A stretch of DNA of 64,000 nucleotides, taken from positions 124,001 to 188,000 of the forward strand of contig NZ_JACJQO010000015.1 in assembly GCF_014696715.1 (NCBI RefSeq). The letters are read 5' to 3'. Below are positions 28,677-63,989 of the stretch, in pieces. The first letter of the stretch is position 1. Each line of letters opens with the position of its first letter. Position numbers and translations under genes: made by a program. Source of the stretch: Pseudanabaena sp. FACHB-2040 (lineage in GTDB: Bacteria; Cyanobacteriota; Cyanobacteriia; Phormidesmidales; Phormidesmidaceae). The notes under the pieces are model-generated. The model made no database searches and was not told the DNA's origin. It saw nothing but the letters and a program-made list of their open reading frames with translations.

Positions 28677-29831
28677 ATGAGTATCAATCAAACTGAGATC
28701 AATCCAAAAGCTTTTCAGGCTGGCGGACAGCTCAACTTCTTCGAGCGCTATCTGACGCTCTGGGTGTTTCTCTGCATTATTGTGGGAATTTTGCTGGGGC
28801 GCTTATTTCCTGGCATAGCCGTCGCGCTAGATGCGATGAGCCTTTATCAGGTGTCGATCCCGATCGCCATCTGCCTCTTTTTTATGATGTATCCGATCAT
28901 GGTCAAGATTGACTTTGGTCAAGCCAAGCGGGCCGCTCAGGCTCCTCGACCCGTCGTGCTGACGCTGGTTGTGAACTGGGTGATTAAGCCGTTTACGATG
29001 GTGGCCTTTGCTCAGTTTTTCCTGGGCTGGCTGTTTAGGCCGCTGATTGAGGGTACGGAGTTGATTCGGGGAGCGCAGGTAGGCCTAGCTGATTCTTACA
29101 TTGCTGGCACAATTTTGCTGGGCATCGCGCCCTGTACGGCAATGGTGTTGATGTGGGGCTATCTGTCTTTTAGCAATCAGGGACACACCCTGGTAATGGT
29201 GGCGATTAACTCGTTGGCGATGCTGTTTCTCTATGCACCTCTAGGGCGCTGGCTGCTGGCAGCTAACAACCTGGCAGTGCCTTGGGAAACAATTGTGCTG
29301 TCGGTGCTGGTCTATGTGGGTCTGCCGCTGCTGGCTGGGGCGGTGTCGCGCAGCTGGATTTTGCAGAACAAGGGCCGGGCCTGGTTTGAGGACGTGTTTT
29401 TGAAGTATCTCAGCCCGGTAGCGGTGGTGGCGCTGCTGCTGACCCTGGTGCTGCTGTTCGCCTTTAAGGGTGATCTGATTGTGGAGAACCCGCTGCACAT
29501 TCTGCTGATCGCGGTGCCCCTGTTTATCCAGACCAACTTTATTTTTTTGATTTCTTACCTCGCTGCTCAAAAACTGGGCATGGTCTACGAAGATGCTGCC
29601 CCAGCAGCGCTGATTGGGGCTAGCAACCACTTTGAGGTTGCGATCGCAACCGCTGTTACCCTCTTTGGCCTTAACTCTGGCGCTGCCCTAGCCACAGTTG
29701 TCGGCGTGCTGATCGAAGTCCCTGTCATGCTGATGCTGGTCGAGGTTTGCAAGCGCACTGCTTTTTGGTTTCCCCGCGAGCCGGAGAAGGCGACGCTGCG
29801 GGATCCGCGCTGTACGAAGCCGTTGGGGTAG
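28677..29831 (+). CDS. acr3: Arsenite efflux transporter, ACR3 family
   Basis: 384 residues with ten predicted membrane helices. The ACR3 signatures include [16 protein letters not shown] with the essential Cys (near 157) and the N-terminal [12 protein letters not shown] segment. It exports arsenite (and possibly antimonite) across the plasma membrane. It lies between arsR and arsC on the same strand. ArsH, often encoded in cyanobacterial ars operons, is absent here. Confidence 0.94.
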
Positions 29832-39505: not shown

Positions 39506-40738
39506 TCAAGCGTAAAACCCGGGTGTTGGGTATTGCTGGTTTAGCGCCCAGTTGCCCACTTCGCGCAGCTTGTAGTCCACTGGGTCGTGCAGGGTGAAGG
39601 TGCGTAGGTTGCGCCAGTAGCGGTCAAACCCGTGCTGACGACTGGTGGCGCGGGCTCCCATCAGGTCAAACATTTGGTTGGTAATGGCTAGACCGGCCTG
39701 CGTTGCTGCGATTTTGGCGGTTGCGATCGCAACCGCACACTCCCCTCGCTGCTGTTCGGTTAAGTCCCAGCCTCGGTCCCAAGCTGTCTGCATCTGGTCA
39801 GCGGCTCGATCGACCAGCGCTTCTGCCCCGCTGAGGCCCACCCACAGTTCACCAAAGCGGTGCAGCCGGTAGGGATCTTCAGTAGCCGCCTCGATGCCAG
39901 AGGTGGGCCAAGGCCGGGTTTGGGTCTGGGCATAGTCACGGGCTGCAGCCAGCGCGCCTTGAGCAATGCCGACGTAGATATTGGCCAGATTGAACTGGGC
40001 TAGGCAGGCCCGAAAGGTCTGAAACGGGTGCCCCGGCTGGCGCGGCGTGAGAATTTCTTCGGGGTAAACCGTTACCGAGTCGAAGGTGACGCTGCCGCTG
40101 TCGGTCTGGCGCTGGCCGATGTTGTCCCAGTCGTCATGACAGGTCAGGCCCGCCCGACTGGTGGGAATGACCACTACCGTAAACGCCTCTTCCCCCGGCA
40201 CAACGGCAGTGGTGGGCAGGTAGTCTGAGTTTTTTGCCCCAGAGCAAAAGCTCTTGGTGCCATTGAGCCGGTAGCCGCTGTCATCCCGGGTCAGCACCAG
40301 CCGTCGATCGAGAGGATTGAGCGCGTTGCACCAAAACCAGTTATGGCGGGCAGTTTCGCTGTAGTAGTAGCGCTCTTGAGCCTCGCTGCCGTAGAGCTGG
40401 GGAATGATCACCCCCAGAGGGTGGTAGGAAAAGACGTGGGCCAGCGAAGCATCGACCTTAGCAATTTCTCGCACTACCTGAGCCACCGTGATCCAGCTTG
40501 CCCCAGCTCCGCCATACTCAGCCGGAATCGCTAGCCGCAGCAGCCCGCTGGCCCGGATGCGATCGCGTTCTGCTTGGGGGGTGCCGCCCTGCCGATCGCG
40601 CTCGGCTGCTGTCGCAGCAAATTCAGCCGCCAGTTCTCGGGCAATAGTGACTGGGTTTTCGGGCAGGGAAATCTCGGGGCAGGGCGCGGCCTGGCCCTTT
40701 AGATCAGGGGATCTAGGAATAGAAGGGGTCACAGTCAT
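39506..40738 (-). CDS. Acyl-CoA dehydrogenase-like flavoprotein (SfnB/DszC group)
   Basis: 410 residues. N-terminal helical domain (AAEYGGAGASWITVAQVVRE), beta domain (FCSGAKNSDYLPTTAVVPGE, DDWDNIGQRQTDSGSV) and C-terminal helical bundle with GARATSRQHGFDRYWRNLRTF. The last motif and the context are those of flavin-dependent sulfur-acquisition monooxygenases related to DszC/SfnB, rather than fatty-acid enzymes. It ends the ssu operon 18 bp after ssuB, so a role in sulfur scavenging from organosulfur compounds is inferred. Confidence 0.88.
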   Translation of the reverse strand: MTVTPSIPRSPDLKGQAAPCPEISLPENPVTIARELAAEFAATAAERDRQGGTPQAERDRIRASGLLRLAIPAEYGGAGASWITVAQVVREIAKVDASLAHVFSYHPLGVIIPQLYGSEAQERYYYSETARHNWFWCNALNPLDRRLVLTRDDSGYRLNGTKSFCSGAKNSDYLPTTAVVPGEEAFTVVVIPTSRAGLTCHDDWDNIGQRQTDSGSVTFDSVTVYPEEILTPRQPGHPFQTFRACLAQFNLANIYVGIAQGALAAARDYAQTQTRPWPTSGIEAATEDPYRLHRFGELWVGLSGAEALVDRAADQMQTAWDRGWDLTEQQRGECAVAIATAKIAATQAGLAITNQMFDLMGARATSRQHGFDRYWRNLRTFTLHDPVDYKLREVGNWALNQQYPTPGFYA

Positions 40739-40756
40739 GTTCTCTAAAACCTCAGC

Positions 40757-41509
<753 letters not shown>

Positions 41510-41556
41510 GGGTGGAGGAGTAGGGAGTGGAGGAGTAGGGAGTGGAAGGGTGGATG
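41510..41556. repeat. G-rich tandem repeat upstream of ssuB
   Basis: Two copies of a GGAGGAGTAGGGAGT-type unit, then GGAAGGGTGGATGAG, abut the ssuB ATG on its 5' side. Confidence 0.65.
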
Positions 41557-41570
41557 AGTAAGCCGTGTAG

Positions 41571-41596
41571 GATGGGCAAAGCGAAGCGTGCCCATC
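41571..41596. repeat. Dispersed palindromic repeat, GATGGGCA...TGCCCATC type (copy 2)
   Basis: Differs by one base from the reverse complement of 16921-16946 and shares the following CAAAGCC. Located between ssuC and ssuB. Confidence 0.75.
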
Positions 41597-41659
41597 AAAG
41601 CCCATAGCCGTAGAGCGCATAGCGCCAAAGGTGCAGTGCCTACACACAGCCATGCCCCC

Positions 41660-42577
41660 TCACCCTGAAATGTAGGTGTCTTGCCAGCGAAGCAGGCGCT
41701 TACCCAGGGCGGCCAGCAGCGAGTCGGTCAGCTTACCCAATATGGCAAACAGCAGCAGGCTAGCCAGGATAATGGCGGGTCGGCCTGTGGTCTGCCCGTC
41801 TATTAACAAAAAGCCCAGACCCTGACTGGCTCCCATCAGCTCGGCTGCCACCACAAACATCCAGCCGAGGCTTAAGCCATTACGCAGGCCCACTATATAC
41901 GAAGGCAACGTCGCCGGGAAAAACACCCGACGAATCAGCTGAATCTGGCTTAGACGGTAGATCTTGCCCACTTCCACCAGCTTGCGATCGACATTTTGAA
42001 TGCCGCTCATCAGGTTGAGGTAGACCGGGAAAAACACCCCCACAGCAATCAGCGCTACCTTCGAGGTTTCAAAAATTCCTAGCCAGAGAATAAACAGGGG
42101 CACCCAGGCCAATGAAGGAATGTTGCGTAACGCCTGCAGCAGCGGGTCAAAGTAGCGGTAGGCCGTGGGGGAGTAGCCGGTTAATGCCCCCAGGAGCGTG
42201 GCCGCTAGAGTGCCCACGCCAAAGCCTACCCCCACCCGAAAGAGCGTAACGCCAATGTGGCGCACCAGCTCACCGCTAGTTGCTAGCCCCCAAATCGTGG
42301 CCGTTACTGTCGTGGGGGCGGGCAGCAGGTTGGGCGGAAACACCCCCAGCCGGGACAGCAGCTCCCACACAATCAGCAGCCCTAGTGGCAAGATCCAACC
42401 CTGGTAGCGGCCCTGCAGCTGCCAAGAGCGACGATGGGCAGGCGCTCTGGGGCTAGTCTTTGACCCTTGCCCCCAACCCGTCAGCCAACTGCGAGAATTT
42501 GGCGCTTTGGCTGGGGAACGACCGTTTTGCACCTGTGACAACTGGGCGAAATGAGAGGATTTTGTGTAAAAGCCCAT
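41660..42577 (-). CDS. ssuC: Sulfonate ABC transporter permease
   Basis: 305 residues, about six membrane helices after a basic N-terminus of about 55 residues that is longer than usual. The BPD permease motif is present (MSGIQNVDRKLVEVGKIYRL, ... LPSYIVGLRNGLSLGWMFVV). Follows ssuA by 8 bp, so co-transcribed. Confidence 0.93.
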   Translation of the reverse strand: MGFYTKSSHFAQLSQVQNGRSPAKAPNSRSWLTGWGQGSKTSPRAPAHRRSWQLQGRYQGWILPLGLLIVWELLSRLGVFPPNLLPAPTTVTATIWGLATSGELVRHIGVTLFRVGVGFGVGTLAATLLGALTGYSPTAYRYFDPLLQALRNIPSLAWVPLFILWLGIFETSKVALIAVGVFFPVYLNLMSGIQNVDRKLVEVGKIYRLSQIQLIRRVFFPATLPSYIVGLRNGLSLGWMFVVAAELMGASQGLGFLLIDGQTTGRPAIILASLLLFAILGKLTDSLLAALGKRLLRWQDTYISG

Positions 42578-42585
42578 AGGGCCTC

Positions 42586-43632
42586 CTAGCGACGAGCAAC
42601 TTTCTCGATGTACTGCGGATCAATCAGATCGCTAACCACCTGCTCAACATCGGTCGAGGCCGGAATTACCCCGCTTTTCTTCAGCACGTCCCCAGCAGCC
42701 GAAATGGTGTCTATCTGCACCGGGCCAATCACTGAGTTGGACAGGTCTGTGCGCTCTAGCTGCTTGGCGGCAACTGCAGGCGTCAGCTTGGCCTCTTTTT
42801 CTAAAATGGCGGCCAGCTCAGCAGGATTAGCTACAGCCCACTGTCTTGCCTGCTCGTAAGCGGCCAATACCCGCTCAACATAGGCCGGATACTGGGTGGC
42901 AAAGTCTTCTCGTACGTTGAGCACGCCATAGGTATTAAAGTCAGGGTTGCGGTAAAACAGGGTAGAACCCTGCTCCAGTTCGGTTGCGGCCATGTGCGGG
43001 TCAAGCCCAGCCCAAGCCGCCACATCGCCTCGCTCTAGCGCCGCCCTGCCGTCGGGGTGCTGCAGCTGCACGATCTCAAGGTCTTGCTCAGATAGGCCAA
43101 CTTGGTCGAGCGATCGCAATAGGAATATATAAGGATCGGTGCCTCGGGTAGCGGCTACTCGCTGGCCCTTGAGGTCTTCAACCCGGCTGATGCCGGAATT
43201 GGGGCGCGTTACTAGGGCAGTCCACTCTGGCTTGGAGTAGACGTAGACAGATTTGATTGGGTTGCCGTTGGCCTTAGCCAGCAGCGCCGCCGCGCCAGCA
43301 GTAGAGCCAAAGTCAATGCTGCGGCTGTTGAGCAGTTCTAGGGCTTTGTTGCTGCCCTGGCTTTGGGTCCACTCAACTCGGATGCCGTCTTTGCCCAGGT
43401 CTTCTTCTAGCCAGCCTTTATCTTTTAGCACCAGGCTGACCGGGTTGTAATAGGCAAAATCTATCCGCACCGCCTCGGGGTTAGCGGCTGTAGTTGAGCT
43501 TTGGGCGCAGCTATTGAGCACTGAAAAGCAAAAGATGGCAGTGAGGGCGATCAGCCATGTCGGCAGGCGAAGCGGGTTCAATCGTCTCAGCCAGCGGTTG
43601 CCAAAGTTAGCGTTGGAAATACTACGAACCAT
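42586..43632 (-). CDS. ssuA: Sulfonate-binding periplasmic protein
   Basis: 348 residues. N-terminal signal about 25-45 with Cys (ALTAIFCFSVLNSCAQSST), consistent with a lipoprotein. NMT1/SsuA-type fold: RIDFAYYNPVSLVLKDKGWL, FGSTAGAAALLAKANGNPIK, AATRGTDPYIFLLRSL. Captures sulfonates for SsuBC. Preceded by the 48-bp repeats. Confidence 0.92.
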   Translation of the reverse strand: MVRSISNANFGNRWLRRLNPLRLPTWLIALTAIFCFSVLNSCAQSSTTAANPEAVRIDFAYYNPVSLVLKDKGWLEEDLGKDGIRVEWTQSQGSNKALELLNSRSIDFGSTAGAAALLAKANGNPIKSVYVYSKPEWTALVTRPNSGISRVEDLKGQRVAATRGTDPYIFLLRSLDQVGLSEQDLEIVQLQHPDGRAALERGDVAAWAGLDPHMAATELEQGSTLFYRNPDFNTYGVLNVREDFATQYPAYVERVLAAYEQARQWAVANPAELAAILEKEAKLTPAVAAKQLERTDLSNSVIGPVQIDTISAAGDVLKKSGVIPASTDVEQVVSDLIDPQYIEKVARR

Positions 43633-43666
43633 AGGTTTGAACTTGCAAAAGTTAAGGATGTATACG

Positions 43667-43811
43667 AGTCGTGGCCCCTTAAGCGTCTAGAAACCGGGTT
43701 TCTACTCTGCTGTCAGTCGTGGCCCCTTAAGCGTCTAGAAACCGGGTTTCTACTCTGCTGCCAGTCGTGGTCTCTGAAGCCCAGAAGAAACCCGGTTTCT
43801 GGCTTCTCACG
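43667..43811. repeat. 48-bp tandem repeats, each with the palindrome AGAAACCGGGTTTCT
   Basis: Unit 1 starts at 43667 and unit 2 at 43715, nearly identical; a third diverged unit starts at 43763. Each holds AGAAACCGGGTTTCT or a close variant (AGAAACCCGGTTTCT), a palindrome common in cyanobacterial intergenic DNA. They occupy the ssuD-ssuA gap and could act as an mRNA processing or stability element. Confidence 0.8.
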
Positions 43812-44948
43812 TTAGCTGGCGCTGGCAGGAATCTTTTCGTTGGCAATGATTTCGCCTAGGGGGCTGATGTAGCGGCTGGGTGCGGCTTTGGGCAGGTTTT
43901 TCAGAGGCAGCTTGGGAAACACCAGTTCGGCAAAGCGGTAGGCTTCTTCTAAGTGGGGGTAGCCAGAGAAGATAAAAGTATCGATGCCTAGGTCGGCATA
44001 TTCCTGAATGCGAGCCGCAACCTGATCGGGGTCGCCCACTAGTGCGGTTCCCGCCCCGCCTCGCACTAGGCCAACCCCAGCCCAGAGGTTAGGACTGACC
44101 TCTAGGTTGTCTCGGCCTCCGTGGTGCAAGGCCACCATGCGCCGCTGTCCCTCAGAGTCGGCGGTTGCTAGAGCAGCTTGGGCCGCAGCGATAGTCTCAT
44201 CATCGAGGTGGTGGATCAGTCGATTGGCGGCTTCCCAGGCTTCGGCTTCGCTCTCGCGCACAATCACGTGCAGGCGAATGCCAAAGCGCAAAGTGCGGCC
44301 ATGTTGGGCGGCTAGGCTGCGAACCTCGGCAATCTTTTCGGCGACCAGGGCCGGGGGCTCGCCCCAAGTGAGGTAGAGATCGACGTGTTTGGCGGCGACT
44401 TCTTTTGCGATCGCACTCGACCCCCCAAAGTACAGCGGCGGATACGGAGCCTGCACAGGCGGAAAGAGCAGTTTCGCCCCCTTAACCGAGAGGTGCTTGC
44501 CCTCAAAGTCCACGACCTCGCCCTGCATCACCCCGCGCCAGACGTGCAGAAACTCATCGGTCAACTCGTAGCGGGCTGTTTTGTCTAAATGCAGCCCATC
44601 TCCGGCCAGCTCTGATGGATCACCCCCCGTCACAACATTGACCAGCAGCCGCCCCTGCGACAGCCGATCAAAGGTCGCAGCCATGCGAGCCGCCATTCCC
44701 GACGATGAGATGCCGGGGCGCACCGCCACCAGAAACTTCATTTTCTGAGTGACCGCAATCAGCGAAGCGGCCGTAATCCAGGCATCTTCGCAGGATTTGC
44801 CGGTAGGCAGCAATGCCCCTGCATAACCCAGGTGATCGATGGCAACGGCCAGCTGCCGCAGATAGTCGGGGGTAATGGCGCGCCCCCCGACTGCCGTGCC
44901 CAGGTAACGACCATCGCCGTGGGTGGGGATAAACCAGAGCACATCCAT
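43812..44948 (-). CDS. ssuD: FMNH2-dependent alkanesulfonate monooxygenase
   Basis: 378 residues, the usual SsuD length. The start at 44948 is fixed by [17 protein letters not shown] and an AAGGAG seven bases upstream; longer starts are rejected. Luciferase-like TIM barrel: [76 protein letters not shown]. It cleaves alkanesulfonates to sulfite and aldehyde. First gene of ssuD-ssuA-ssuC-ssuB. Confidence 0.95.
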
Positions 44949-45009
44949 AGCAAACTCCTTCATAGCGTCCGCGCTTTGGACAACGTTCGAAAAATCTGAG
45001 AAGAGAAAA

Positions 45010-45096
45010 GGCACAGGGAGGGATTAGGAGCCTGAACGCGCATATCAGAGAGGTGGCGTAACCATTTCCCATGCGAGTGAGTGAGCTCCCTGTGCC
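45010..45096 (-). promoter_or_regulatory. Structured element in the ssuD leader
   Basis: GGCACAGGGAG and CTCCCTGTGCC form a perfect 11-bp closing stem around a 65-nt interior. Inside, CGCAT/ATGCG can pair. A 27-codon ORF starts within it ([16 protein letters not shown] ...) and its stop overlaps the ssuD ribosome-binding site. With a promoter predicted at 45211-45239, the element lies in the untranslated leader. A sulfur-responsive riboswitch or leader-peptide attenuator is a reasonable reading; no known class is recognised. Confidence 0.5.
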
Positions 45097-55208: not shown

Positions 55209-55648
55209 CCCGGCCGACTGTGGACAATCCCGCCACCGCCTCCGACACGGTAAGTGGTTTCAGCAACCAGCTTACTGCCACAATCTACTGAACCAGGCTG
55301 TAAAAACTAGCCCTGTATTGAGCTGTTCTACGAGATAGCCTCCTAAGATCAATGGACCATCTCCGAAATCAGCCTCACCCGGACTGAATTAGATCTTAGT
55401 CTTTACACCTGAGTCTACCGCCTGCCATGAGCAATCTAAAGGCCTACTCCATCGCTAGGCTTACCATTGCCATCGCTACCGCCCTGGCCAAATGGCCTTA
55501 AGCCAGAATGATGACGTAGTAGCTCAGGCTAGGCTTTCCCCTTGGCAGGTTGAATCACTTCAATCCGCTGGCATCCCCAATATCTCAAACAGTTTTAAGG
55601 CTGCGACAGCAATAGCTTGGTTTTGACGCTCAATATTGAAAGATTGTT
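55209..55648. other. Upstream region of the 55649-61443 operon
   Basis: 440 bp divergent spacer. No gene recognised. The promoter of the five-gene operon must lie here, but no convincing -35/-10 pair was seen. Confidence 0.5.
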
Positions 55649-56365
55649 ATGGTGCAGGCGATTCGTCCACTGATTGAGGCCCAATATGCAGAGCAGGTGC
55701 AGGCCTTTGAGTACTCCCCCTGGTTTCAGCGCTTAGAGCAGGGTCAGGCCTCCCTGCAGGAGTACGATGCCTTTATTTTTAACCTTTGCCAGACTCACCT
55801 GAAGAGTCCGCAAATTTTGGCCTTTCTCTACGCAGTGGCACCGCCGCAGGCCGCGCCCCAGATCAAACACAATTTACTGGAAGAACTGGGGCTAGATGAG
55901 GTGGCCATCTGCCACCCTGATCTACTGTATCAACTGGCAACGGCGGCGGGGTTTGATCGCGATCGCCAAACTCGTCTGGCCGAGGCGGCGCAGGCTCAAA
56001 TTCGTCAGCTCTGCACCGATCCGCTGCTGTTTGGCACGATGCAGGAACTGGGGCTGTCAGTGCTCTTGGAGGTGACCTGCTTTGAGTGGATGCTCTCTCG
56101 CCTAGCCAGTCGCATTGGCCATGCTCTAGCGGCCTATCGCGGTCTGCCGCCCGCGAGTCTAGCCTGGTTTGATCACCATTCTGAAGTCGATATTCGCCAC
56201 GCCGAGGAAGGTTTAGACAGCGTTGAGCAATACCTGGCCTATTACGAGATCGAGGCCGAGGATCTAGAGACCATTCTCGACATTACCTTCCGCGAGAACA
56301 TTTTTATCAAGCGATACTTCGCCGACCTGCCCCCTCTTGCCGAATCTTCCCATGAGAATCGTTGA
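55649..56365 (+). CDS. HDO-type (haem-oxygenase-like diiron) oxidase
   Basis: 238 residues, helical bundle of the iron-containing redox family. Metal-ligand context: HNLLEELGLDE (Glu), FEWMLSR (Glu) and HHSEVDIRHAEEGLD (His, Asp, His, Glu). Relatives such as UndA and BesC use diiron and oxygen to cleave or decarboxylate fatty acids or amino acids. First gene of the operon; its end overlaps the next gene by 14 bp. Substrate unknown. Confidence 0.87.
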   Translation: MVQAIRPLIEAQYAEQVQAFEYSPWFQRLEQGQASLQEYDAFIFNLCQTHLKSPQILAFLYAVAPPQAAPQIKHNLLEELGLDEVAICHPDLLYQLATAAGFDRDRQTRLAEAAQAQIRQLCTDPLLFGTMQELGLSVLLEVTCFEWMLSRLASRIGHALAAYRGLPPASLAWFDHHSEVDIRHAEEGLDSVEQYLAYYEIEAEDLETILDITFRENIFIKRYFADLPPLAESSHENR

Positions 56366-57518
56366 CGCTACCCTGTTTGCCCTGCAAATTCCTTTTGTCG
56401 AAGCCTTTGCCCACAGTGTGCGATCGCGCAGCTACTCAGATTCCATCGTGGTGCGGCTGCGGGCCGAAGACGGCACCGTCGGCTATGGTGAGGCAGTGGC
56501 GCGGCCTTACGTCACCGGGGAGACGGTGGACGGCTGTTTGCAGTTTATGGAACGCACCCTATGGCCTGCGGTTCAAGCCACCGACTATCTCCGGTGGACA
56601 GGACAGAATCCGATCGCCTGGCTAGCGTCGTTGGCCCTACCTGCCGATGCTGATAGTTTGGCAACCCCTGGCGTAGTGGCCTGGCATGGGGCTCGCTGTG
56701 GCTTTGAGCTAGCCCTGGTCGATTGTTTGCTGAAATCTGCCGGGGTTTCGCTGGGGGACCTCTTGCCGCCTCGGCACCCGGTCACCTACAGCGGCGTGAT
56801 CACGGCCAGCAGCGTTGAGGGAGCGGTGAAACATGCCAGGCGATTCAAGCAATTTGGCCTGCCCCACGTGAAGGTGAAGATCACGGGGGAGGCGGATCGG
56901 GAACGGCTGGCGGCGATTCGCGCGGTGGTGGGGCCGCAGGTCTCGTTGCGGGTAGATGGCAATGGGGCCTACTCGGTGGAAAGTGCGATCGCTACCTGTG
57001 AGGCCCTAGCAGAATTTCAGATCGACAGCGCCGAGCAAATGATTTCGCGCGGTCATCCTCAGGATTTAGCAACGGTTCAGGCGAACTCAACTATTCCCCA
57101 AATGGCCGATGAGTCGCTGATTACCCTGGCGGATGCCGAGGCGCTAATTGCGGCCAGGGCCTGCAAAAGCTTTAATCTGCGGCTGTCAAAATGTGGGGGA
57201 CTAGGGCCAACCTTGGCCATTGCTGAGCTGGCTCAAGCCACTGGCATTCAGGTGCAGGTGGGCTGCCAGGTGGGCGAGACGGCAATTCTCTCCGCCGCAG
57301 GGCGGCACTTGGCGGCCTATTTGCCGGAGATCAGCTTTTGCGAAGGCTCCTACGGCAGTCTGCTATTGCGGGAAGATCTCAGTCGTCGCCCCATTCACTT
57401 TGGCCATCAAGGTTTGGCTAAGCCTTTGAAGGGGCCAGGGTTGGGGGTAGAGATTCAAGATGCCCTGCTGGAAAAATACGCCCAGCAAATAATTTCACTG
57501 ACAACTAAGGCGGTGTGA
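56352..57518 (+). CDS. Enolase-superfamily enzyme, dipeptide-epimerase/muconate-cycloisomerase type
   Basis: 388 residues from ATG 56352 (MRIVDATLFALQIPFVEAFA). Capping domain then barrel with acid/base Lys in HVKVKI, metal-site Asp in RVDGNGAYS, Glu in SAEQMIS, Asp/Glu in MADESLITL and second Lys in LRLSKCGGLG. This set fits dipeptide epimerases and o-succinylbenzoate-synthase-like enzymes; in context, amino-acid or acyl-amino-acid racemisation is likely. Confidence 0.88.
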   Translation: MRIVDATLFALQIPFVEAFAHSVRSRSYSDSIVVRLRAEDGTVGYGEAVARPYVTGETVDGCLQFMERTLWPAVQATDYLRWTGQNPIAWLASLALPADADSLATPGVVAWHGARCGFELALVDCLLKSAGVSLGDLLPPRHPVTYSGVITASSVEGAVKHARRFKQFGLPHVKVKITGEADRERLAAIRAVVGPQVSLRVDGNGAYSVESAIATCEALAEFQIDSAEQMISRGHPQDLATVQANSTIPQMADESLITLADAEALIAARACKSFNLRLSKCGGLGPTLAIAELAQATGIQVQVGCQVGETAILSAAGRHLAAYLPEISFCEGSYGSLLLREDLSRRPIHFGHQGLAKPLKGPGLGVEIQDALLEKYAQQIISLTTKAV

Positions 57519-57519
57519 G

Positions 57520-59172
57520 ATGATAGCCGGACTGTATACCCTCGGCCTCCACTGGCAGGGTCGAGCCCTGAAACAACGGCTAGAGGCTGCCACCCAAGAG
57601 CCTGAGCTGGCCCAACAGCAGCTATTGCGCCAGTTGCTCAGCCGCCATGGAGACACTCAGTTTGGCCGCGAGCATCACTTTGATCAGATTCGCACCCCGC
57701 TAGACTACCGCCACGCAGTGCCCATCCGCGACTACGAAGGCTTTCGGCCCTATGTGCAGCAGATGATGGCAGGCCAGGAAAAGATTTTGGTGAATGAGCC
57801 CGTGCGGATGTTTACCTTGACCAGCGGCACCACTGGGCAGCCCAAATATATTCCCGTCACCGCTGAGGTAGAGCGGGGCGGGTCACAGCTAATGCGGCAG
57901 TGGCTCTACCGAATTTTGCAAGATCACCCAACATTTTTGAGCCGGGCGGTGGTGGGGATTGTCAGCCCAGCGATCGAAGGCTATACCTCAGGCGGCATTC
58001 CCTACGGCAGCCTGTCTGGGCGAATCTACCAGCAGATCCCAGCTTTGATTCGTCGCACCTACGCCATCCCTTACCAGGTGTTTGAGATTCCCGACTACGA
58101 TCGCCGCTACTGGGCCATTGCCCGCTATGCCCTGGCGCGGCAGGTGTCCTTCCTGGGTACGCCCAACCCCAGTACCCTCAAGCGGCTGGCCACGGTGATG
58201 ACTCACCAGGCAGAATCGCTGATCCAGGCCATTTACGACGGCACCGATGGCGAGGGCATCTCGGCCCAGCGGCCCCAGCCTAAGCGAGCCAAACAGCTAG
58301 AACAAATCTTCAATACCACGGGGGCATTACGGCCTCGGGACTGCTGGCCCCATCTGGATCTGCTGGGCTGCTGGACGGGCGGTTCGGTGGGGGCACAGGC
58401 CCGACAACTCACTGGTGACTACGGTCCACTGCCGATTCGAGATCTAGGCTATCTGGCCAGTGAAGCCCGAATCACCCTGCCCTACCAGAACAATACTCCC
58501 GCTGGCCTGTTAGATCTGACCCTGAATGTCTATGAATTCATTCCAGAAGCCAGCGCTGACCAGGTCGACCCGCCGATTTTGCTCAGCCATGAGCTAGAAC
58601 GGGGGCAGTGCTACCAGATTCTGTTGACCACTCCCGGTGGTCTCTACCGCTATCACATCAATGACGTGGTGGAGGTGACGGACTTCTATCACCGATCACC
58701 CGTCATTGCCTTTTTGCGTAAGGGCCGGGACATGAGTAACCTGACCGGGGAGAAGCTACATGTGAACCATGTGCTGGCTGCGATCGCAACCCTACAACGC
58801 CAGTTTCACCTGACGGTGGCCTCCTACCGGCTGGTGGCAAATGCCCAAAACCTGCGCTACGAGCTGTACTGGGAAATGTCAGATGTCCCCAGCCACGACT
58901 GGATCGAGCCATTGTTGTCAGCCCTGGATACGGCCTTGGCCCAAAACAACGTTGAATACGGTCAAAAACGTGCCTCTCGACGGTTAAACGCCCCCTGTCT
59001 CCATCGCATGAAACCGGGCTGGGCTGAGGCTACTCAACGCTGGGCCATAGCTCATGGTCAGCGGGAGGTACAGTACAAATGGCAGGTTCTCACCCAGCAG
59101 CCCCTACCGCTGGATACCGAAGCGATTGTGCAAACCTATGAGCTGACGCTGCCCTATGCCCACCCCCACTGA
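57520..59172 (+). CDS. GH3-family acyl-amido synthetase
   Basis: 550 residues. ATP-binding motif FTLTSGTTGQPKYIPVT (near 99-115), then the GH3 signatures LDLLGCWTGGSVGAQA, LGYLASEARITLPY, LYRYHINDVVEVTDF and NLTGEKLHVNHV. GH3 enzymes adenylate a carboxylic acid and join it to an amine, usually an amino acid. Starts one base after the epimerase stop, so tightly coupled. Confidence 0.92.
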   Translation: MIAGLYTLGLHWQGRALKQRLEAATQEPELAQQQLLRQLLSRHGDTQFGREHHFDQIRTPLDYRHAVPIRDYEGFRPYVQQMMAGQEKILVNEPVRMFTLTSGTTGQPKYIPVTAEVERGGSQLMRQWLYRILQDHPTFLSRAVVGIVSPAIEGYTSGGIPYGSLSGRIYQQIPALIRRTYAIPYQVFEIPDYDRRYWAIARYALARQVSFLGTPNPSTLKRLATVMTHQAESLIQAIYDGTDGEGISAQRPQPKRAKQLEQIFNTTGALRPRDCWPHLDLLGCWTGGSVGAQARQLTGDYGPLPIRDLGYLASEARITLPYQNNTPAGLLDLTLNVYEFIPEASADQVDPPILLSHELERGQCYQILLTTPGGLYRYHINDVVEVTDFYHRSPVIAFLRKGRDMSNLTGEKLHVNHVLAAIATLQRQFHLTVASYRLVANAQNLRYELYWEMSDVPSHDWIEPLLSALDTALAQNNVEYGQKRASRRLNAPCLHRMKPGWAEATQRWAIAHGQREVQYKWQVLTQQPLPLDTEAIVQTYELTLPYAHPH

Positions 59173-59632
59173 TGGTCTGCGGCTGCATCGGCTGGGGCCG
59201 AGTCGGCATCCGGTGCCCTGGCTGTGGGTGCTGACCCTGCTATTTTTGCTGCGGGTGCTGGGGCAGGTGCTGGTGGCCTGCTGTCAGGTGCCCTTTTTGC
59301 CCCCCATGGCCCACTGGTATTCAGGCCTGCTTCCCTACCCGCTGCTGTTGCCCAGCCAGCTGCTGATTCTGGGGCTCCAAGTCAAAATCAATCGTGACCT
59401 AGCCCAGGAACGGGGCTGGTTTCAACAGCCTCGCCCCCGCCTCGGTCAAGGCCTACAGTACGTGAGCTACGGCTACGCCCTGGTGATGGTGATTCGCTAC
59501 GGCATCACCATGAGTCTTTATCCAGAGCGTCGCTGGCTTGGGGAGGGCACTATTCCCATTGTGTTTCACTGGCTGCTGGCTGCCTATCTCTGGCTCTGGG
59601 GCTGGGGCCATCGTCGGGGGAGGCCGCTATGA
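59156..59632 (+). CDS. Integral membrane protein, 158 aa
   Basis: Four membrane helices (WLWVLTLLFLLRVLGQVLVA, LLPYPLLLPSQLLILGL, ... WLLAAYLWLWGWG). No family recognised. Overlaps GH3 by 17 bp and the next gene by four (ATGA). Confidence 0.75.
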   Translation: MPTPTDGLRLHRLGPSRHPVPWLWVLTLLFLLRVLGQVLVACCQVPFLPPMAHWYSGLLPYPLLLPSQLLILGLQVKINRDLAQERGWFQQPRPRLGQGLQYVSYGYALVMVIRYGITMSLYPERRWLGEGTIPIVFHWLLAAYLWLWGWGHRRGRPL

Positions 59633-61443
59633 GAGTAGGGATTTTTCGCCATCGCGCTCGGCTGTTCTCTCACAAGCGGCTCTGGCTGTGGCTGCTGGCG
59701 GGGCTGACTGCGCTGCTGCTGTTAGTTATTGGTCGGGGCAGTGCGATCGCAGCTGCCTGGTTGGGCCACCAGTTAGACTATCCCCCCGCCAGCTATGGCG
59801 TCCGTTTAGAACGCCGGGTGAGCGTGACCGCCCCCGATGGCACGGCGCTGGTTGCCGATGTCTACCATCCCCGTACGGCCGCAGCTACACCCACCATTCT
59901 GGTCCGCATTCCCTACTCCAAACAGATTAAACACATCCTGTTTGCCCGCACTGTTGGCCATCTTTGGGCCAGTCACGGTTACACCACGGTGATCCAGGGA
60001 ACCCGAGGCCGCTATGAGTCGGGCGGCAGCTACGATCCGCCCTTTTTGAACGAGGCCCAAGATGGGCGGGCCACGCTGCAGTGGATCGCCCAGCAGCCCT
60101 GGTACGACGGGCATATCGGCATGTGGGGCGGCTCCTACTTTGGCTATACCCAGTGGGTGCTGGCCGACCAGGTTGATCCGGGGTTGTCAGCCCTGATGCC
60201 GCAGATTTGCAGCACCGACTTCTATCGCATGTTCTACCCCGGCGGCGCGTTTTCCCTAGAGAGCGCCCTTTACTGGGCGACCCTCAGCTACGGCCCACGG
60301 GATATTCCCCTCCCCCAAGAGCAGCTACAGCAGGGCTATGAGGGGTGGCCCCTGCTAGAGGCCGATGACCGAGCGGTGCAGAATATTCCGTTTTTTGATA
60401 CCTGGGTCAGCCACACCGATCGCGATCGCTACTGGCAAGCGGTCGATGGCAGCGATCGCAACCGCCAGCTCCAGGCTCCGGCCCTGCTGATGGCCGGCTG
60501 GTACGATCCGTTTTTACCCACCCAACTGGCAGACTTTCAACAGATTCGCGCCAACGCGGCCCCCCCGGTCGCCGAGGCCACCCGCCTGATCATTGGGCCT
60601 TGGACCCACGCCAACACCGTCACCTTCCCCGACGGTAGCCGCCCCCGCAACTACCGCTTCGAAAGTATTGGTCCCAGCCTGCCGTGGTTTGATCAGCAGC
60701 TCAAGGGCGCTGCTGAGACGGCCCAGCCCAGCCCGGTGCTGATCTACGTCATGGGCGCTAACACCTGGCGCGGAGAATCGACCTGGCCCCTGCCCCGCAC
60801 CCGCTACACGCCCTACTACCTGCACAGCAACGGCCAGGCGAATACTCTCAACGGCGACGGCCTTCTCAGTCTGGAGATTCCCGGGGAGGAAGAAGCCAGC
60901 GATCGCTTTGTTTACAACCCGCAAAACCCAGTGCCCAGTGCTGGGGGAACCATGCTGGGGCCAAACGCAGGCATTCAGCCTCAAACTATGATTGAAGAGC
61001 GGGAGGATGTGCTGGTCTATACCACCCCGCCCCTGACCGACGCGATCGAAGTGACGGGGCCAGTGCAACTGCGGCTCCAGGTTTCGACCACGGCTCCCCA
61101 TAGCGATTTCACAGCCAAACTGGTGGATGTGTATCCCGATGGAACGGGTTATAACGTCTCCGAAGGGATTCTTCGGCGGGGTTATAGCAATAACATTCTA
61201 GAGGAAACTCAGGTACCCACCGAAATCACGATCGATCTCTGGCCCACCAGCCAAGTCTTCTTCCCAGGCCATCGCATTCGCCTAGAAGTTTCTAGCAGCA
61301 GCTATCCCCGCTTCGACCGCAATCCCAATACGGGCCGCGATATTCCCACCGAGCGCCAGCCAGTCGCCGCGACCCAGACTGTCTACCACCACACCGCTGC
61401 TGTCTCCCAGCTGATTTTGCCGATTATTCCAGCGGGAGGATAG
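59629..61443 (+). CDS. CocE/NonD-family membrane-anchored hydrolase
   Basis: 604 residues. One N-terminal membrane helix (about 22-47), then an alpha/beta-hydrolase domain: VSVTAPDGTALVADVYHPRT, nucleophile Ser in MWGGSYFGYTQW, Asp in GWYDPF and His in GPWTHANT, then the C-terminal jelly-roll (VTGPVQLRLQVSTTAPHSDF). The family hydrolyses esters or amides including acyl-amino acids. Faces outside the membrane if the helix is an uncleaved signal. Last operon gene. Confidence 0.92.
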   Translation: MRVGIFRHRARLFSHKRLWLWLLAGLTALLLLVIGRGSAIAAAWLGHQLDYPPASYGVRLERRVSVTAPDGTALVADVYHPRTAAATPTILVRIPYSKQIKHILFARTVGHLWASHGYTTVIQGTRGRYESGGSYDPPFLNEAQDGRATLQWIAQQPWYDGHIGMWGGSYFGYTQWVLADQVDPGLSALMPQICSTDFYRMFYPGGAFSLESALYWATLSYGPRDIPLPQEQLQQGYEGWPLLEADDRAVQNIPFFDTWVSHTDRDRYWQAVDGSDRNRQLQAPALLMAGWYDPFLPTQLADFQQIRANAAPPVAEATRLIIGPWTHANTVTFPDGSRPRNYRFESIGPSLPWFDQQLKGAAETAQPSPVLIYVMGANTWRGESTWPLPRTRYTPYYLHSNGQANTLNGDGLLSLEIPGEEEASDRFVYNPQNPVPSAGGTMLGPNAGIQPQTMIEEREDVLVYTTPPLTDAIEVTGPVQLRLQVSTTAPHSDFTAKLVDVYPDGTGYNVSEGILRRGYSNNILEETQVPTEITIDLWPTSQVFFPGHRIRLEVSSSSYPRFDRNPNTGRDIPTERQPVAATQTVYHHTAAVSQLILPIIPAGG

Positions 61444-61681
61444 CCCCTAGAATTAGTGGAATGAGTAACCGTCCTTTGCCGCAAACAACTGTAGCTTGCT
61501 GCTATTCATTTACCCTATCTCGCCTGTAGAAATTCGGGCTAGATCGGGGTACCGAAATCACCGTGGTGCGCCGGTTTAGGAACCGAGTGATGGCTCATAA
61601 CCTGTGCTGATCGAGCCCTGGACATCCAAGCGGCTCTACCTGTTTTTTGCAGGGCTACCGGTGGCGCATAGGAGGGCAGCC

Positions 61682-62134: not shown

Positions 62135-63898
62135 TCAAGAAGCAGTTTCTGAAACTTTGACAAATTCTAGAACGCTTTCGCCCCGGTGTTTGTAGTTGTG
62201 CTTAATGTCGATCTGGTGCTTTTGGTGATGGGCATGGATCTCGTCAGCTCGATCTGTTAATGCCTGCTCAATCTTCTTCTGAGCCTTGGTAAAGGACTTG
62301 AGGACGTTGATGGAGATAGCCCACTTATCGTCATAGCGATTTGCAGCATCGTTGTAGGCCATGATCGCGTCGATAGCTGCATTGATCAGCTGCTCCGATT
62401 CCCCCCGCCTAGAGCGCGCGTGAGGCTTCTTAGATTCCTGAGTAGTTTTGGGAGAAGTTTTGGGGGTGGCAGGTGTAGATCTGGGTGCCGCAGGGGTAGC
62501 CCCATTTTGAGAAGCCCCGACAGACTGCTGCTGCCCAACCTGGAGGGCGATGAGCTGCTGCATGACATCGATCAGCCCGCCAATTTTGTCTTCTAGGGTG
62601 GAAGTGATCGGTTGCTCGAGTGCTGCACTGGCTTGTTCACGAGCTTCCGCAATCGGTGGTGTTATGGCTTCCTCTCGCTCCGCTTCAGGTTCTGCGGGTT
62701 GCTGCGCTAGCCCTCGAAGTTGACCCTGAATCCATCTTACAAGCTGGTTCATTTGCTCATGCTGGTTGCCCTCAAAGCCCAGCACCTCAAAGATCGATTC
62801 TAGATGGGCCTTGTCTTCCCTCGTGACTTGGATGCGGGTCGTCTTCATTGATTTTTTGGGTAATGGTTGACTAAGGGTTCCAGTTTGCGGCTGTTGGGCC
62901 TGGTGCTTGGCATAGGACTGGGAGAATACTTCAATGGGTGTGATGCCTCCATGTCCTAACTTGATGCCCTTGCGCTTGCCGCCGTACTGAGCAATAACGC
63001 TATCGGCAATTTCGTAGTCGCTGTAGTGCCGACTGGTCGCCAGAGAACGTCTCAGCTCTGGGTTCTCTACCTCCATCACGGCATAGTGGCCCTGGATAGC
63101 TGCCTTAAACTCTGTCTCGTTGACGTTAGGCGGGCAGTACCAAAAGGTTGCAATGGTGGCATAAACCGCTCTGAACAGGTGTGTGTAGAGGTTGTCTTTG
63201 CCCTCTCGTTTAGGCACCAGGGTGGTGAAGTTGCGATCGCACGCCACCTCCACTGCCCGACCGAAGCGTTGGCTCACCTCAGCGACCTCTAGCCCCACAG
63301 CTTCGGGCAATTCATGGCGGACTTTGGCGAGGGCTTCAATCACCCGTTCAGCCGTAGTCAGCGTGGGAATCTCAAAAGAGAGTTGCTGCAGTTCTCCCCG
63401 GCGCTTCAATGCTCCAGTGAAGGTAACGCTCCACTGTGATTTCTTCTCAAACTTAGCCGTGCTGAGGATTTCGCTAGAGCGTCTTCCGGTCAGTACAGCT
63501 AGGCCTGCACAGATATCGGCCCAGTCGGGCTTCTCCAGCAGCCGCACTGCCTGAGCCACAATGCTGTCGGGCCTGACGATGAACTGAACGCTTTCATTGC
63601 GATCTGCGACTGACTTCTGCTTATCCAGATTTAGCGCTGTCCACTGGTCGGTTGTGAAATTGATGTGCTCAAGGCTGAAGTGGTCTGGGCTGAGGTAGGT
63701 CTTGAGGTAGCGGCGAGTAATATCCATCGGCCCCTGCTGCTGACGTAGGGTTGCTAAACCTCGGCTGCTCCACCAGTCCTGCAGCTCCCGATTGATGGCC
63801 TGTGCTTCGGCTCTGCCGTCTGAGGTGTCTGGAAGGGCTTTGATGCGAGGTATCCACGTCTCAATCAGGGGTTTCTCTAGCCAAGCTCTACGTCCCAT
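62135..63898 (-). CDS. Protelomerase (telomere resolvase)-family protein
   Basis: 587 residues. The N-terminal 110 residues are helical. A tyrosine-recombinase-like core follows: ICAGLAVLTGRRSSEIL with Arg139/140, a beta-hairpin with FTGALKRRGEL (Lys165), YTHLFRAVYATIA with His240 and Arg243, and TSRHYSDYEIAD with His291 and candidate nucleophile Tyr292 or Tyr295. This order matches telomere resolvases such as TelK and TelA, which break and rejoin a palindromic site into covalently closed hairpins. A Gln/Ala/Pro-rich linker (about 390-495) leads to a C-terminal helical domain. Cyanobacterial members are known by sequence but their function is not established to my knowledge. Confidence 0.82.
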   Translation of the reverse strand: MGRRAWLEKPLIETWIPRIKALPDTSDGRAEAQAINRELQDWWSSRGLATLRQQQGPMDITRRYLKTYLSPDHFSLEHINFTTDQWTALNLDKQKSVADRNESVQFIVRPDSIVAQAVRLLEKPDWADICAGLAVLTGRRSSEILSTAKFEKKSQWSVTFTGALKRRGELQQLSFEIPTLTTAERVIEALAKVRHELPEAVGLEVAEVSQRFGRAVEVACDRNFTTLVPKREGKDNLYTHLFRAVYATIATFWYCPPNVNETEFKAAIQGHYAVMEVENPELRRSLATSRHYSDYEIADSVIAQYGGKRKGIKLGHGGITPIEVFSQSYAKHQAQQPQTGTLSQPLPKKSMKTTRIQVTREDKAHLESIFEVLGFEGNQHEQMNQLVRWIQGQLRGLAQQPAEPEAEREEAITPPIAEAREQASAALEQPITSTLEDKIGGLIDVMQQLIALQVGQQQSVGASQNGATPAAPRSTPATPKTSPKTTQESKKPHARSRRGESEQLINAAIDAIMAYNDAANRYDDKWAISINVLKSFTKAQKKIEQALTDRADEIHAHHQKHQIDIKHNYKHRGESVLEFVKVSETAS

Positions 63899-63928
63899 GT
63901 ACTGAGGGCTCCTAGGTGTTCATCTAAT

Positions 63929-63966
63929 CCAAATCTATATCCATATACCAAATCTGCATCCATATC
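63929..63966. repeat. Two 19-bp tandem iterons upstream of the protelomerase gene
   Basis: CCAAATCTATATCCATATA (63929-63947) and CCAAATCTGCATCCATATC (63948-63966) agree at 16 of 19 positions, head to tail, about 30 bp upstream of the start codon. Placement suits an autoregulatory operator. Confidence 0.7.
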
Positions 63967-63972
63967 AGGCCA

Positions 63973-63989
63973 AACAGCTTTTGGCTGTT
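63973..63989. promoter_or_regulatory. Small palindrome upstream of the iterons
   Basis: AACAGC-TTTTG-GCTGTT, 6-bp arms, six bases beyond the iterons. The window ends before more context is visible. Confidence 0.4.

Follow-up and report, generated by a model that had tools for sequence, protein, structure and literature searches.

Does a protelomerase-like gene in a cyanobacterium mark a linear replicon with hairpin ends, or does it point to some other use of the enzyme? The question is raised by the 64,000-nucleotide stretch of the Pseudanabaena sp. FACHB-2040 genome analysed here (the window), in which the original prediction had placed a protelomerase-family protein on a chromosome-like locus. 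Hairpin telomeres are documented in Borrelia, in Agrobacterium and related Rhizobiaceae plasmids, in a few phage-plasmids and in small Nostoc plasmids. The full explanation that best accounts for our observations, and which we regard as probable, is that the window gene encodes a hairpin-telomere resolvase from a cyanobacterial clade with odd-centred substrates. The features of the locus are given in Table 1.

Table 1. Resolvase gene, protein domains and upstream repeats, in window coordinates
Feature	Position	Strand	Basis or remark
Telomere resolvase (protelomerase) family gene, 587 aa	62135..63898	-	ORF, PF16684, TelA match
Catalytic region, aa 61-329, with R140, K165, H240, R243, H271, Y292	62912..63718	-	Profile and alignment
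PF16684 match proper, aa 108-273	63080-63577	-	Pfam
Conserved middle segment, putatively RHH-like, aa 352-400	62699..62845	-	Deduced from unfused partner proteins
Low-complexity Gln/Ala/Pro linker, aa 401-494	62417..62698	-	Varies among relatives
Conserved C-terminal domain, aa 495-577	62168..62416	-	HMMs; weak phrog_34828 match
19-bp-period repeat, copy 1, gene sense ATATGGATATAGATTTGG	63929..63946	.	At -48 from start codon
19-bp-period repeat, copy 2	63948..63965	.	At -67
Short inverted repeat AACAGC-n5-GCTGTT	63973..63989	.	Within chance

The assignment to the protelomerase family is borne out by the comparison of the protein with PF16684 (ResT-TelK_cat), which it matches with 117.7 bits (E = 5.8e-34, cut-off 27) as the sole PF16684 protein in the 6.28-Mb, 44-contig draft genome. 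A phmmer search against the PDB recovered TelA (9e-8) and TelK (2e-4), and the comparison of a predicted structure with TelK and TelA that had been proposed as a check gave the same answer, since Foldseek matches with E < 0.001 were TelA entries and TelK and nothing else; the underlying AlphaFold full-length model, built from six sequences, has a mean pLDDT of 54 with a poor catalytic region and is of supporting use only. Searches for a Pfam match to the general phage-integrase family, for a DEXDc helicase-related Pfam match above cut-off (a trait of CyRepA and CyRepX) and, by alignment, for viral relatives returned none. Against the TelA equivalog NF052462 the protein scores 49.6 bits, far below the 800-bit cut-off.

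MAFFT alignment to TelK and TelN places the residues R140, K165, R243, H271 and Y292 of the window protein on R275, K300, R383, H416 and Y425 of TelK, which we take to be its catalytic residues. The catalytic set of TelA is Arg255/Lys286/Tyr363/Arg366/His394/Tyr405, and H240 of the window protein occupies the position of Tyr363 (PMC3558466). The order R, K, H/K/Y, R, H, Y that the family requires is found here as R140, K165, H240, R243, H271 and Y292, and these residues are invariant across 11 close relatives. The recombinase-type residues R139/140, K165, H240, R243 and Y292 had been read correctly from the sequence alone, and the catalytic tyrosine, whose loss had been named as evidence against resolvase activity, is retained. 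The catalytic histidine, H271, had been missed, and the listed H291 is Asn in some relatives; Y295, listed as a second tyrosine candidate, is Phe in TelK. Judged from its sequence, the window protein is a member of the telomere resolvase family with an intact active site, and resolvase activity is a well-supported prediction from homology.

Among known systems, TelA of Agrobacterium (PDB 4dwp, 4e0p, 4f43) is the best match in both sequence and fold, sharing the catalytic domain and active-site residues, whereas it differs from the window clade in the even 6-bp centre TCATGA of its target and in having no RHH-linker-CTD tail. TelK of phiKO2 and TelN of N15 likewise share the catalytic core and the R-K-R-H-Y positions; in contrast to the window gene, their genes have an even-centred target palindrome about 166 bp upstream. 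Such proximity of target and gene, as found in N15 and phiKO2, is not universal in the PF16684 family.

The long Gln/Ala/Pro linker and extra C-terminal domain, which had been noted as unfamiliar among classical resolvases, proved to be real and conserved. With HMMs built for this analysis, the C-terminal domain was found as a fused part of the large cyanobacterial resolvases; next to six small resolvases of 295-354 aa (L025, L026, L027, L028/L056, L054 and L093), hosted by Nostoc-type and other small plasmids, it is encoded by an adjacent ORF of its own. The HMM search did not detect it in TelN or TelK. The separate proteins match phrog_34828, which has no assigned function, and a weak, sub-threshold RHH_1 match lies at the N-termini of the unfused partners from Chondrocystis plasmid5 and Stanieria. 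The middle segment may thus be ribbon-helix-helix-like, and the natural reading is that the window protein would be a fusion of a small resolvase with a partner of the form RHH-linker-CTD. A model of the C-terminal domain (pLDDT 79) found no structural neighbour, which does not prove a new fold. The occurrence of this domain in both fused and unfused form points to a resolvase partner protein that is undescribed in the literature searched.

Upstream of the gene, the two head-to-tail repeats that had been reported are genuine: the 18-mer copies are identical at 16 of 18 positions with a period of 19, and a pair of this quality was reached in none of 200 Markov shuffles. Apart from this pair, the 6.28-Mb genome contains no mismatch-free copy. 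The accompanying palindrome fared differently, its 6-bp arm being reached by 26% of shuffles and thus standing at chance level. The repeat is kept at exactly -48 in the congener CoB13 (74% amino acid identity), where a different upstream gene lies beside it, and the Coleofasciculus gene is preceded by a related copy; it showed no significant conservation at the genes of L. boryana pLBX and pLBY, NIES-3755, FPU101, Phormidesmis RL_2_1 or Chondrocystis. On the 6.75-kb FPU101 contig, the 11-mer GAATTGGATTG occurs in exactly three copies, two of them less than 350 bp from the hairpin end and one just upstream of the gene. This arrangement suggests that the resolvase may bind both its own promoter and telomere-proximal sites, and the pair of 19-bp repeats next to the start codon is probably an operator, with predicted binding sites for autoregulation by the resolvase.

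Proteins of the PF16684 family are scattered, being present in 15 of the 386 cyanobacterial genomes sampled, and a homologue of the window protein was found in 28 of the 63 genomes of the window's family, often in multiple copies, some of them distant. Plasmid-borne relatives occur in Leptolyngbya, Chondrocystis, Gloeothece and others, and the 'protelomerase family protein' of L. boryana pLBX and IU 594 p2 has the same architecture as the window protein, with 46% identity over 99% of its length. In a maximum-likelihood tree, the window protein falls in a seven-row clade (starred in the tree) with FPU101, ColeoS288, NIES-3755, FACHB-63 and L. boryana, which is nested in a 23-row clade (support 98/98); this larger clade includes each of the four odd-hairpin cases as well as three linear replicons that have terminal inverted repeats. 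The cyanobacterial clade of the window resolvase lives mainly on plasmids and linear chromids. The 473.8-kb Gloeothece PCC 7822 plasmid Cy782202, recorded as linear, has several protelomerase-like places (L047 5229-7784), and no palindrome was seen at its ends.

The relatives carry signs of linearity. Chondrocystis NIES-4102 plasmid2 (123,154 bp) has the same 189-bp perfect hairpin palindrome at its start and end, together with an inverted repeat of at least 3 kb at the ends, while plasmid3 of this strain has a 93-bp palindrome at one end and a 45-bp palindrome forms the end of the FPU101 contig. Two contigs of one genome, of 774,507 and 156,025 bp, have exact terminal inverted repeats of 10,726 and 9,716 bp, respectively, and a 107-kb contig of the clade has inverted ends with 84% identity; the hairpin tip itself is absent from the clade contigs with long terminal inverted repeats. 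A window-like resolvase gene is present on both the 774.5-kb (G439:C2: L213, L236, L247-L250) and the 156-kb contig (G439:C4: L212, L232, L251-L253).

The largest case concerns a closed genome of 4,681,111 bp (G027) with dnaA at base 382, which contains a perfect palindrome of 6,159 bp (G027:C1 2110111-2116269; L030 7112-13270) carrying one resolvase gene per arm, head-to-head, and located at 45% of the circumference from dnaA. Palindromes that are perfect over such a length are normally unstable in bacterial DNA. The simplest reading is that this chromosome would be linear, bounded by hairpin tips and terminal inverted repeats of 3.08 kb, and that the assembler closed it into a false circle, the palindrome probably being a concealed chromosome end.

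All four telomere palindromes of the clade are centred on a base, as TATC-A-GATA or GTTC-W-GAAC, with the centres GCATATTATC-A-GATAATATGC, TATTATATC-A-GATATAATA, TTTATTATC-A-GATAATAAA and AGTTC-A/T-GAACT. The telomeres of N15 and phiKO2, recovered by the same palindrome scan, are both even-centred, as are two hairpin plasmids that do not belong to the clade, G072:C53 and C59. All known protelomerases make cuts 6 bp apart (PMC3558466), and a dyad located on a base pair implies that symmetric cuts would be spaced by an odd number of base pairs. The odd centre is drawn from four palindromes in assembled sequence rather than in reads, and with so few assembly-derived cases the odd spacing is a prediction rather than a demonstration. 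We consider it a finely balanced matter whether the clade, including the window protein, resolves base-centred telomeres with cuts 5 or 7 bp apart and maintains hairpin replicons up to chromid or chromosome size in free-living cyanobacteria, the cases named by this reading being the 774-kb replicon and the 4.68-Mb chromosome whose sole 'circular' join is the 6.16-kb palindrome.

By analogy with TelA and TelK, a resolvase dimer would bind the palindromic junction left by replication of a hairpin end, Y292 would cleave both strands, and each end would fold back and be resealed as a covalently closed hairpin. In the clade, the substrate would be a palindrome centred on a base with a TC-A/T-GA core, cut with an odd spacing. 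The RHH-like segment and C-terminal domain would be the counterpart of the separate accessory protein in small linear plasmids, and probably provide further contacts with DNA or link resolution to regulation. If true, an odd-centred telomere breaks the sole spacing rule common to all studied resolvases and offers a direct test of hairpin folding in the active site; linear replicons would be common in Leptolyngbya-like cyanobacteria, some of them would be of very large size, and they would lie concealed in published 'circular' assemblies.

Part of this picture is already known. NCBI labels relatives 'protelomerase family protein', and PMC5987646 describes pNPM8-10 of Nostoc sp. N6 as cyanobacterial linear plasmids with terminal inverted repeats and closed hairpin ends of tip AAATTAACRGAC, and cites a linear chromosome of Cyanothece 51142; no resolvase is named in that description of the plasmids. 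The tip AAATTAACRGAC is also found on G072:C53, where it is an even palindrome and the resolvase lies outside the window clade. No paper on odd-centred telomeres, on a fused or split C-terminal domain or on similarly large resolvase-bearing linear replicons of cyanobacteria was found in the literature searched, which took in few subscription journals.

In the organism itself, the gene is carried by contig C15 (191,961 bp), one end of which is 4 kb away. The search for long perfect palindromes resembling resolvase targets that the original prediction had suggested came back empty: none of the 44 contigs (a short one being masked) has a hairpin palindrome at either end, and no palindrome scored >=11 in the region up to 2.5 kb from the gene. 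The label 'chromosome-like' was likewise not established, as neither a tRNA nor a ParA-like gene is present on C15 and dispersed repeats mark where the contig stops. The linear hairpin replicon that had been proposed is thus upheld for the clade, in which relatives have hairpin or long inverted ends, and is unproven for this organism, where a present or recent linear replicon for the enzyme to act on may still be supposed. The C15 end near the gene was considered as a telomere and rejected, its last 113-116 bases being common to four other contig ends and representing a break in a repeat as long as the assembler's word; the assembly in general breaks at dispersed repeats of about 113 bases. 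A 5.8-kb block of four to five genes (window 55623-61449), which ends about 0.7 kb before the 3' end of the gene, shares 85% identity with a section of a 196-kb extrachromosomal contig from another genus (G431:C2), which suggests that the block was transferred recently.

The circular-looking carriers within the clade, namely L. boryana p2 (the IU 594 homologue being borne on a 553-kb plasmid record marked circular), NIES-3755 plasmid1 and G388:C2 (direct overlap of ends), make a stranded gene a serious rival: the enzyme would be intact, but integration or loss of its linear plasmid would have left the gene on a circular replicon or a chromosome that has no telomere. This agrees with the telomere-free assembly and repeat-bounded contig described above, and also with the congener, whose gene and repeat stand beside a different histidine kinase, so that the gene moves between sites together with its repeat. 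However, the active site, domains and promoter repeat have all been kept, which suggests continuing selection, and hairpin tips are often lost in draft assemblies, being missing from the long-repeat contigs of the clade too. We hold stranding to be quite possible, if somewhat on the doubtful side. The same circular records could be taken to favour a site-specific recombinase that uses this active site for dimer resolution or inversion on circular plasmids and forms no hairpins, the more so as mutation can turn TelA to Cre-like recombination (PMC12270096); the four hairpin-type palindromic ends of the clade and its several replicons that have terminal inverted repeats, together with the missing Pfam match to the phage-integrase family, render this quite unlikely.

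A role as replication initiator or copy-control protein, in which the catalytic fold would bind upstream iterons and start plasmid replication with hairpin formation secondary or lost, draws on the head-to-tail repeats adjoining the gene, on AT-rich, iteron-like tracts with which the NIES-3755 plasmid begins, 1.5 kb away from its gene, and on members in circular plasmid records. It is unlikely, as the window has two repeat copies only, DNA binding alone needs no conserved catalytic tyrosine, Chondrocystis plasmid2 encodes its own ParAB, and the known cyanobacterial Rep proteins CyRepA and CyRepX are helicase-like rather than resolvase-like (PMC10899382), so that identity with the plasmid Rep CyRepX, which belongs to another family, was rejected. 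The plasmid pANL of S. elongatus has no annotated resolvase. Finally, the palindromes and inverted ends of the relatives might be false and the clade devoid of linear replicons, given that the evidence consists of assemblies rather than reads and that assemblers can mirror contig ends. We regard such an artefact as very unlikely: the centre TATCAGATA recurs in independent assemblies, no such palindromes occur at seven control contig starts of G072 or at the contig ends of G000, the scan that found them also recovers the two phage telomeres, and the Nostoc N6 hairpin plasmids, whose tip is shared by G072:C53, were shown from reads (PMC5987646). A hairpin-telomere resolvase with odd-centred substrates is the reading that we retain.

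Several further observations were made on the linear elements and on the window. Small linear plasmids with terminal inverted repeats, namely G072:C59 (L061/L027), G072:C53 (L029/L060), G121:C6 (L025/L062) and Chondrocystis plasmid5 (L093), form a phage-plasmid-like group in which two have even-centred hairpin tips and three pair a small resolvase with a separate gene for the C-terminal domain. Eight resolvase-bearing contigs (L040:146, L080:187, L045:100, L207:124, L206:16793, L208:144, L211:163 and L204:27) share an imperfect inverted repeat of 33 bp, about TGAAACCCTTGCTATGTAAGGGTTTCAG, at a distance of 27-190 bp from the contig end; its candidacy as a telomere-specific element was rejected, as it is also found in unrelated plasmid contigs and on C15. 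Elsewhere in the window, a sulfonate-use cluster at 39506-45014 encodes an FMNH2-dependent alkanesulfonate monooxygenase and a DszC/SfnB-like oxidoreductase, and a gene for an ACR3 arsenite exporter is located at 28677-29831.
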